Assembly (NCBI RefSeq): GCF_009936215.1
Contig: NZ_AP019551.1
Coordinates: 1,140,708 to 1,204,707, forward strand
Direction: 5' to 3'
Length of the DNA: 64,000 nucleotides
DNA from: Athalassotoga saccharophila
GTDB taxonomy: Bacteria > Thermotogota > Thermotogae > Mesoaciditogales > Mesoaciditogaceae
Shown here: in pieces, positions 3,578-8,580 of the stretch
Layout: every line of letters starts with the position of its first letter
Position numbering within the stretch: position 1 is the stretch's first letter
Translations under genes and position numbers: made by a program
Notes under the pieces: model-generated
Databases searched by the model: none
What the model saw: the letters and a program-made list of their open reading frames with translations, nothing else
Told to the model about the DNA's origin: nothing

Positions 3578-3726
3578 CGTCTGTCATCTCCTCCAAATCA
3601 CTTTCTAATTCAGTGTACAAAGAAATTTTACCACTAAAGTTGAATTAAAATTAGTGATCAAAAATATACTATTTTTTTGTACAATAAAATTGAAGCGCGC
3701 TTCAAAAACAAAATGGGGGTGGTAAA
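3578..3726. promoter_or_regulatory. Divergent control region between tdh and the DUF1659 cassette
   Basis: The 149 bp between the two divergent start codons are AT-rich. On the plus strand a TTGAAT (3640-3645) and TATACT (3665-3670) 19 bp apart are a possible promoter for the cassette, and GGGGGTGG (3715-3722) is its ribosome site. An inverted pair of the 13-mer TGTACAAANAAAT lies at 3614-3626 (plus) and 3671-3683 (minus), with only the N position differing, which could be a shared operator. Confidence 0.4.
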
Positions 3727-3972
3727 GTGGCGGCAGGAACAAGACCTGTAAGTACGGTTTCAAAGGCACTTTCTTTGACGATTTCTCTCGACACAGGCAA
3801 TTTAAGACCAAATGGAAATCCCATCGTAAGCCGTGTAAGAATTAACGGCGTAAGGGAAGACGCAACATTTGAAGATCTTTACGATCTTGCGTACCTTTAT
3901 TCCAGCCTCGTCTCAAAACAAATAGCGGACATAACGGTAAATGAGAACTCGGCTTTAGGGCCGATAGACTGA
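3727..3972 (+). CDS. DUF1659 family protein
   Basis: An 81-residue protein starting at GTG behind GGGGGTGG. Its sequence (SKALSLTISLDTGNLRPNGN, then ASFEDLY-like ATFEDLYDLAYLYSSLVSKQI) matches what I know of DUF1659, a small family of unknown function found mostly in Firmicutes. There is no signal peptide and no membrane segment. It is the first gene of a four-gene plus-strand cassette and lies 11 nt before a DUF2922 gene, its usual neighbour. The role is unknown; family assignment is from memory, not from a search. Confidence 0.75.
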   Translation: MAAGTRPVSTVSKALSLTISLDTGNLRPNGNPIVSRVRINGVREDATFEDLYDLAYLYSSLVSKQIADITVNENSALGPID

Positions 3973-3983
3973 GGTGAAAGAAA

Positions 3984-4211
3984 ATGAGATATCTGAATAT
4001 GAGATGGATAAGTTCGTCAGATGGATCGACAAAAGCACTTAGAATAAACAACGTAAAAGAGAACATTACCCAAGATGAGATAATGGCCTTCATGGAAAAG
4101 GTGGCGACACTTCAACTTTTGAAGACTTCCAAAGGTTCTCCGGTCGATACGATCGATTCCGCAACGGTTGTGAATACCGATTCTACCCAGATATTCAACT
4201 TTGTCCAATGA
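3984..4211 (+). CDS. DUF2922 family protein
   Basis: A 75-residue protein beginning MRYLNMRWISSSDGSTKALR, with the central AMF-like stretch ITQDEIMAFMEKVATLQLL and an acidic, polar C-terminus. Length and pattern fit DUF2922, which is usually found beside DUF1659. The ATG is preceded by GAGGTGA. It appears soluble and cytoplasmic. A perfect GC-rich hairpin follows four bases after its stop codon, separating it from the next two genes of the cassette. Function unknown. Confidence 0.72.
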   Translation: MRYLNMRWISSSDGSTKALRINNVKENITQDEIMAFMEKVATLQLLKTSKGSPVDTIDSATVVNTDSTQIFNFVQ

Positions 4212-4214
4212 ATT

Positions 4215-4234
4215 AAGGGGGCACATGCCCCCTT
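4215..4234 (+). terminator. GC-rich hairpin inside the DUF1659 cassette
   Basis: A perfect 9-bp stem with a 2-base loop (AAGGGGGCA, CA, TGCCCCCTT) sits just after the DUF2922 stop. The stem is strong but the run of T after it is short (TTTCTG), so it may be a partial terminator or a processing and stability element that makes the first two genes more abundant than the last two. Confidence 0.55.
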
Positions 4235-4251
4235 TCTGAGAAGGTGATTCT

Positions 4252-4497
4252 GTGGAACTTCTAAAGATACTTTTGAATATAAAGAATTTCATAGAAATTG
4301 CAGTCATAATCGTGGAACATCCCGGAGATGGACCTGCAAAAAAGGAAAGGGCAATAAAGATCGTAAAAGAACTAATGAAGATAAATGACATACACCTGCC
4401 GGTACCGGACCAGATACTGGAGATGATTTTGGGATTTGCAATTGACGATTTTGTCGGATGGGCAAATGAGAAACTATGGGGAAATCAAAATGGTTGA
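4252..4497 (+). CDS. Small hydrophobic helical protein in the DUF1659 cassette
   Basis: An 81-residue protein starting at GTG behind AAGGTGA. The N-terminal third (LLKILLNIKNFIEIAVIIVEH) is hydrophobic enough for one membrane segment, followed by a charged stretch GPAKKERAIKIVKELMKIND and an amphipathic C-terminus. The layout resembles small phage-holin-like proteins, and the place in the cassette is that of YvrJ-type membrane peptides in Firmicutes, but I cannot assign a family. It overlaps the start of the sigma-like gene by 8 nt, so the two are probably translated together. Confidence 0.6.
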   Translation: MELLKILLNIKNFIEIAVIIVEHPGDGPAKKERAIKIVKELMKINDIHLPVPDQILEMILGFAIDDFVGWANEKLWGNQNG

Positions 4498-4927
4498 GAT
4501 GGAAAAAACGGTTAGAGCGATCGTCAAAAAATACGCACATTCGGTAAAGAGAGACGAATTTGAAGATCTGTGTCAGACCGTATGGTATCTTGTACTTCTT
4601 TCGGAAAAAACTTACGATAAACAAAAAGGAATGTCGCCACAATCTTACGCTTATTACTTTGCGGATATGAAATTGAGAGATCACTTCGACAGACAGATAA
4701 AGTTGCCCGGCACAGATGGAGAATTCTCGCTTTTAAGAATGAAAGCGATAAGTTTCGAAGACACAGACCAACTTCCAGACACAATTGAATTCACAATCGA
4801 AGATGAGATACCTTCGGCAATAAAGTTAAAATCAGAAGGATACACTCTCGAAGAAATATCTAAAATCCTTAAAGCATCTATGAGAAAAATAAGAAGAACG
4901 ATAAAAGAATACCAAAGATCAATCTAA
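4490..4927 (+). CDS. Small sigma-70-like transcription factor
   Basis: A 145-residue protein. Residues 10-60 (RDEFEDLCQTVWYLVLLSEK, then KGMSPQSYAYYFADMKLRDH) resemble sigma region 2, including the DFDDL/Q-like core-binding helix and the tyrosine-rich promoter-melting helix. The last 35 residues (EGYTLEEISKILKASMRKIR) form a helix-turn-helix of the region 4 kind. The linker is short and acidic, as in ECF or phage-type sigma factors. The start was chosen at 4490, 8 nt after GGGG; an upstream ATG at 4436 lies inside the preceding gene and a later one at 4499 is possible. It ends in a strong terminator. It may direct expression of its own cassette. Confidence 0.68.
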   Translation: MVEMEKTVRAIVKKYAHSVKRDEFEDLCQTVWYLVLLSEKTYDKQKGMSPQSYAYYFADMKLRDHFDRQIKLPGTDGEFSLLRMKAISFEDTDQLPDTIEFTIEDEIPSAIKLKSEGYTLEEISKILKASMRKIRRTIKEYQRSI

Positions 4928-4954
4928 AAGGCAGGCTCTCGCCTGCCTTTTTTA
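4926..4954 (+). terminator. Intrinsic terminator after the sigma-like gene
   Basis: An 11-bp stem (AAAAGGCAGGC / GCCTGCCTTTT) with a TCTC loop and a T-rich tail TTTTTTATTTT. It begins inside the stop codon of the sigma-like gene. The opposite strand has a weaker T run and may also end transcription of the convergent ferredoxin gene. Confidence 0.9.
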
Positions 4955-8115: not shown

Positions 8116-8580
8116 ATGTTTAAAAAGAGAAGAGAAGGTTTTACGCTTGTAGAACTTTTGATAGTTATGGCCGTTATAGCCGCTTTGATGGGCGCGCTTG
8201 TACCGGTGGCTTTGAGTGCAATAAGACATGCAAATGCAACGAGGGTGGCGGAGAATTTGCAATCACTTGTGACTCAGGTACAACAGTACGCGTATTCTGA
8301 GCATACTCTTCCAAGTATGAGCGCTTTGGCTACAAGTGTATCGGGCGGAAATACAACTGACTATGTAATTTATGGGGGGACATCTCCAAGCGCGATAACC
8401 CATGCAATTACTTCCGGAAGTAGTTCAATAACAGCACCTTTGACATATTTCGCTGTGGTTTATACTGGTGGATCAGTGAGTGCGGCGGATGTTTATAATG
8501 TCTGGAAAGGTGCTACAAGTACAATTAGTGGTATTACTGGCACAGTAATGGCAACTGGAGTTATAAATAAGTACTGGTAA
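8116..8580 (+). CDS. Type IV pilin or pseudopilin
   Basis: A 154-residue secreted pilus subunit. The class III leader MFKKRREG is followed by the N-methylated phenylalanine and the hydrophobic helix FTLVELLIVMAVIAALMGAL, with Glu5 present. The rest is rich in Ser, Thr, Ala and Gly and lacks a paired C-terminal disulphide. The ATG follows CAGGAGGGAT. It stands alone, 25 kb from the pil assembly operon in this window, and is the best candidate there for a major pilin; the prepilin peptidase and the PilB/PilT ATPases are not in the window. Confidence 0.88.
   Translation: MFKKRREGFTLVELLIVMAVIAALMGALVPVALSAIRHANATRVAENLQSLVTQVQQYAYSEHTLPSMSALATSVSGGNTTDYVIYGGTSPSAITHAITSGSSSITAPLTYFAVVYTGGSVSAADVYNVWKGATSTISGITGTVMATGVINKYW

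Follow-up and report, generated by a model that had tools for sequence, protein, structure and literature searches.

A 64,000-nucleotide stretch of the Athalassotoga saccharophila genome (here called the window) carries a four-gene cassette encoding a DUF1659 protein, a DUF2922 protein, a small helical protein and a sigma region 2 protein. We read it, at a probability of roughly 50%, as a holin-type release or lysis module, acting on the envelope and belonging to cells and plasmids, rather than as a phage remnant. The cassette layout, the leaderless peptidoglycan hydrolases linked to it in other genomes and the holin match of YvrJ, its third protein in Bacillota, are the grounds for this reading.

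All four genes lie on the plus strand. The first (positions 3727 to 3972) encodes an 81-residue protein with a match to DUF1659 (Pfam PF07872, E 2e-12; 47.3 bits against a curated cut-off of 24.1), and the second (3984 to 4211) a 75-residue protein with a match to DUF2922 (PF11148, E 5.3e-16; 58.7 bits against 25.5). The third (4252 to 4497) starts with GTG and encodes an 81-residue helical protein with the motif LVExPGxGxxKK, and the fourth (4490 to 4927) encodes the sigma region 2 protein of 145 residues. Between the window and a close relative, L057, dN/dS is 0.02 to 0.08 in every one of them, so we regard the four genes as real and under selection. An earlier note, made from the letters of this DNA, had described four small plus-strand genes and had named the first two families; the reading frames, their purifying selection and the Pfam scores bear it out on both counts. 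The cassette is flanked by housekeeping-type genes, and the same two upstream neighbors recur in most same-family relatives, which argues for a stable chromosomal locus and not a prophage. Further downstream, at 8116 to 8580, the window encodes a protein starting MFKKRREGFTLVELLIVMAVIAALMGALVPVALSAIRHANATRV that has the look of a type IV pilin-like prepilin, and a similar prepilin-like protein lies near the cassette in L039.

DUF1659 is present in 61 of 103 Thermotogota genomes and in 196 of 399 sampled Bacillota genomes. Our own profiles, run on 60 Thermotogota stretches plus the window, detected DUF1659 in all 61 and DUF2922 in 60; the third protein was present in 50 of them and the sigma2 protein in 35. 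The gene caller was simple and missed the window's third gene, so the absence of small genes from other loci is uncertain. Gene order is nearly always constant among the Thermotogota cassettes, and the surrounding genes vary widely. The 72 Bacillota loci that were read, for which matches on P. sordellii plasmids were left out as potential toxin plasmids and other plasmids used, contain DUF1659 (71 loci), DUF2922 (72) and YvrJ (57) in that order. DUF1659 thus precedes DUF2922 in about 60 Thermotogota and 71 Bacillota loci, and the conserved linkage that the earlier note had postulated proved strong in this survey, in which association counts take no account of phylogeny. In one genus (g18), other short genes stand in for the third and fourth genes; the third encodes a coiled-coil protein, and the fourth has no relatives among solved structures. 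Some loci show local departures. An insertion-like gene of about 125 codons lies on the opposite strand between DUF2922 and the third gene in genus g13 (L061 to L063, L067, and L071), and 7 of 71 Bacillota loci have a small CxxC (zinc-ribbon-like) gene separating DUF2922 from YvrJ (for example, L166 3780 to 4043, L175 3286 to 3498, and L099 10294 to 10530). Enterococcus sp. 669A (G109) has eight DUF1659 copies, some next to DUF2922 proteins with long C-terminal extensions, and in L090 (7887 to 8080, minus strand) the DUF1659 gene is spread over two frames, being either broken or affected by a sequencing error in the record.

In our literature search, no experimental work on proteins of the DUF1659 or DUF2922 families came up. 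Structure models predict a beta-beta-alpha-beta fold for both proteins (mean pLDDT 70 for DUF1659 and 82 for DUF2922). The two are likely of common descent; the window's DUF2922 protein matches the DUF1659 profile weakly (E 1.8e-4, below the cut-off), and a comparison of the two family alignments was unconvincing. Searches with the models gave no significant match among PDB or viral structures, the DUF1659 model being weakly and not significantly similar to T7 Gp2 (probability 0.89, E 0.54) and to YkzG (E 0.31). With a median maximum hydropathy of 0.7, both proteins appear soluble and have no membrane segment.

The earlier note had called the third gene product a small membrane protein and had mentioned YvrJ-type peptides as frequent neighbors of the DUF pair. 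The family name holds for Bacillota, where the third gene is YvrJ (PF12841, for example at E 4.7e-17), but not for the window, whose third protein has no match to YvrJ in Pfam; the membrane location is likely in the window, judged from one marginal hydrophobic helix with a maximum mean hydropathy of 1.94 over 19 residues. The window protein has weak matches to holin_LLH (E 0.0058) and to the holin family phrog_6918 (E 0.0075). Against the LL-H holin family (TIGR01673) it scores 17.1 bits where the cut-off is 34.75, and 3 of 19 relatives match that family at E values up to 0.05. The Thermotogota third protein belongs to a family distinct from YvrJ, with faint similarity to holins. YvrJ of Bacillota matches phrog_4898, annotated holin, at E 2.1e-9, and Bacillus phage KonjoTrouble has a YvrJ homologue that carries a holin annotation and whose gene lies directly upstream of an endolysin gene. 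Weak YvrJ matches were also seen in two Gokushovirus records (KT264782 and KT264783), where they fall in unannotated sequence close to the end of the record, and may reflect chance or contamination.

A peptidoglycan hydrolase gene adjoins the cassette in 25 of 71 Bacillota loci, and the other 46 have none adjacent. In position counts made with profiles seeded from cassette-linked hydrolases, 26 of the 27 hydrolase hits in the Bacillota stretches fell within the cassette zone; the Pfam control list covered 25 families only, so that single hydrolase hits among the controls are possible, and the position counts are independent of that list. None of 24 linked hydrolases tested has a signal-like N terminus, and the linked amidases match phage lysis families. 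Among Thermotogota, a GH73-type gene lies directly 3' of the cassette in all seven loci read from two genera (g34 and g35). The copy in G090, of the Thermotoga maritima lineage, matches PDB 4qdn across all 136 residues, and we take it to be TM0633. TM0633 is a proven N-acetylglucosaminidase (PMC8943055), and the G090 copy is this enzyme if our assignment holds. No hydrolase gene is adjacent to the window's cassette or to most of the Thermotogota cassettes read. The genome containing the window (91.6% complete) yielded no GH73 and no Amidase_2 protein, and the Amidase_3 proteins that it does encode have signal peptides.

The earlier note's view of the last gene as sigma-like is upheld. Residues 6 to 69 of its product (about 4505 to 4696, plus strand) match Sigma70_r2 with 31.2 bits (E 1.9e-7) against a cut-off of 24, as do 21 of 25 relatives, and in a search of PDB with the family profile all 34 solved-structure hits were sigma factors, the best being FliA (E 3.9e-7). 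The family has an invariant DLxQ motif, which contacts core polymerase in sigma factors. Residues 110 to 143 (about 4817 to 4918, plus strand) form a possible helix-turn-helix (HTH) part, matching HTH_23 at E 1.6e-4, below the cut-off; the window protein matches Sigma70_r4 weakly (E 0.2), and 2 of 25 relatives match it. Only 8 of 36 family members have at least 145 residues and are long enough for a C-terminal HTH like that of the window protein. The rest, of 95 to 137 residues, are essentially sigma2-only, most having no C-terminal domain, and loss of the HTH by frameshift in same-genus relatives was rejected, as visual inspection of the other frames revealed no HTH. Bacillota cassettes have other regulators beside them. 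A ComK-like gene adjoins 23 of 71, 13 of these also having a hydrolase gene; of 16 ComK-like proteins, 4 match the ComK family at E 0.05 or better, and one on a Peribacillus plasmid scores over the Pfam ComK cut-off. A sigma factor gene is adjacent in five of the 71 loci, and it lies immediately upstream in L188, L189, L195, and L199. Judged by sequence, then, the cassette core is constant while the activator gene varies among sigma2, ComK-like and full sigma types. The sigma-like gene is one of several interchangeable regulators, the short g18 gene included. Neither of the two results that the earlier note had named as refuting its regulatory unit turned up, and what stands of that unit is the sigma2 protein and its linkage; the constant core points to holin-type release or lysis more than to a pure signaling unit, and the idea that the sigma-like protein responds to a membrane signal found no support.

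Upstream of DUF1659, a by-eye comparison showed an AT-rich promoter-like stretch, AAAAATATACTATTTTTTTGTACAATAAAA (3660 to 3689, plus strand), which is conserved in same-family relatives; no sigma70-consensus promoter was found there. It is followed by a perfect, loopless and GC-rich 16-base palindrome, TTGAAGCGCGCTTCAA (3690 to 3705, with no strand assigned). Other Thermotogota have GGGCTGCGCAGCCC, GTCAGCGCTGAC, TGGGAGCGCTCCCA and others at the corresponding place, the symmetry being kept while the sequence drifts. Palindrome scores upstream of DUF1659 exceed those of 202 control genes (p 8.5e-13, uncorrected for phylogeny), and hairpin scores there are not raised (p 0.08). An RNA hairpin was ruled out on these scores and on the instability of the RNA fold, and the palindrome is probably, on the simplest reading, an operator for a dimer. 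No further exact copy of TTGAAGCGCGCTTCAA exists in the genome, and near copies are no more frequent than chance would give (7, with 6 in a reversed control).

The internal hairpin and end terminator noted earlier were both recovered by folding. Between DUF2922 and the third gene lies a terminator-like hairpin with a GGGGGC-ACAT-GCCCCC core (4215 to 4234, plus strand; -17.1 kcal/mol, z -2.6), and the cassette ends at an intrinsic terminator (4926 to 4951, plus strand; -18.7 kcal/mol, z -6.8). In Thermotogota, 15 of 17 DUF2922-to-third-gene gaps of 30 to 200 bases hold such a hairpin, compared with 19 of 139 other same-strand gaps in the same loci; for Bacillota the corresponding figures are 26 of 41 and 27 of 121. 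There is none in 41 DUF1659-DUF2922 gaps, and shuffled sequences almost never form one. The stem sequences vary by lineage, and many Thermotogota gaps are too short to hold a hairpin. The hairpin after DUF2922 is probably an attenuator, and as such it would put the DUF pair in excess over the holin and the activator.

We propose that the two DUF proteins, small and without signals, would be produced in excess, and that permeabilization of the inner membrane would fall to the short membrane-active protein, which is YvrJ in Bacillota and the LVExPGxG protein in the window. A leaderless peptidoglycan hydrolase, if present, could then gain access to the wall. A dedicated activator would turn the cassette on, of sigma2 type in the window and many Thermotogota and ComK-like or a full sigma factor elsewhere, with the hairpin holding holin and activator below the level of the DUF pair. 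We infer the pore activity, the role of the DUF pair as released cargo and the activation by the linked regulator. The window's own copy is the weak point of the release reading, as no hydrolase gene adjoins it and its third protein resembles holins only weakly. By analogy, it is possible that it represents a hydrolase-free, non-lytic version of the cassette; non-lytic secretion through holins has been argued for clostridia (PMC9527704). More tentatively, the cassettes of both phyla may make up a previously undescribed release system, in which the DUF pair would be cargo or an extracellular assembly, the holin-type exporters would be lineage specific, the switches (half sigma factor or ComK-like) would be exchangeable and the attenuator would set the cargo-to-holin ratio.

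An excess of the DUF pair fits cargo, or a holin antagonist instead. It is unlikely, in our estimate, that the pair is a soluble antiholin-like brake keeping the holin silent until triggered. The hairpin predicts the required surplus over holin, and no part of the cassette is more constant than the pair, which always lies immediately upstream of the holin-type gene; however, the pair is soluble and lacks a membrane segment, and the three unrelated third proteins (YvrJ, LVExPGxG, and the g18 coiled-coil protein) make direct holin binding less likely. We consider it distinctly unlikely that the cassette is an RNA polymerase unit, in which the sigma2 protein and a polymerase-binding DUF pair control distant genes and the membrane protein is a sensor. 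Such a unit would suit the invariant DLxQ motif and the resemblance of the DUF1659 model to T7 Gp2 and YkzG, but those resemblances lack significance, and beta-beta-alpha-beta folds of small size are widespread. A sigma-like gene is missing from many loci, and this reading leaves both the hydrolases beside the cassettes and the holin match of YvrJ without explanation.

ComK and ComX control competence. ComK-like and alternative sigma regulators being competence-type switches, the ComK-like genes beside 23 Bacillota cassettes, 13 of them with a hydrolase gene, and the sigma factor genes beside five would fit a competence-linked cassette that serves to lyse kin or to breach the wall while DNA is taken up. 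Few of the ComK-like members are recognizably close to ComK, however, and the family may control the cassette alone; the only linked DNA-uptake genes are of ComFC type, in three loci. We think this very improbable. Streptococcal competence fratricide modules likewise combine a competence-type activator, a peptidoglycan hydrolase and paired small proteins, and DUF cassettes resemble them in having all three. They differ in that the hydrolases have no signal peptides, the sequences of the DUF pair do not resemble bacteriocins and no competence genes are linked.

The holin-type release reading has its own precedent in clostridial cassettes of the UviA-UviB-Bcn5 type, which comprise a sigma factor, a BhlA-family holin, an amidase and signal-less cargo (PMC9527704). 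DUF cassettes share with them a sigma-type activator, a single-helix holin-type protein, small proteins without an export signal and, in many cases, a leaderless amidase. Here, in contrast, the holin families are YvrJ or LVExPGxG, two DUF proteins replace the bacteriocin or toxin, regulators of several kinds, sigma2-only and ComK-like among them, replace one another, and an adjacent endolysin gene, lacking in the window, is present in the 25 Bacillota and 7 Thermotogota loci described above. In Bacillus subtilis, RsoA provides sigma2 to SigO, and their targets are oxdC-yvrL, yvrJ and their own operon (PMC8103513). The earlier note's lead to SigO-RsoA and YvrJ was a good one: like RsoA, most relatives of the fourth protein consist of sigma2 alone, and Bacillota cassettes of this type have YvrJ as their third protein. 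Unlike in that system, no sigma4 partner gene adjoins the cassette in the loci read, and the window protein has a possible C-terminal HTH of its own. The cassette offers a testable role for DUF1659 and connects the two DUF proteins with holins and endolysins, as well as with half sigma factors and switches of ComK type. Its regulation can be approached directly through the conserved attenuator and palindrome, and in the Thermotoga lineage a hydrolase of solved structure lies within the same gene run.

Phage holin-endolysin cassettes resemble these loci in the YvrJ-like holin preceding the KonjoTrouble endolysin and in the lysis families of the linked amidases. Unlike phage lysis cassettes, DUF1659, DUF2922 and the ComK-like gene gave nothing by tblastn in 50,697 phage records, and a phage origin was rejected; two scans of viral contigs also found nothing, and none of the loci read showed phage structural genes beside the cassette. 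Weak PHROG families exist for both DUF1659 and DUF2922. A defense system was likewise rejected, there being no PADLOC match. Among the plasmid-borne loci, the 3.3-kb plasmid pRGI00625 (L100) has little besides DUF1659-like, YvrJ-like and replication-type genes, and on several Bacillaceae plasmids and contigs (L094, L095, L097, L101, and L104) the cassette is followed by a gene for a conserved tyrosine integrase of 189 to 190 residues.
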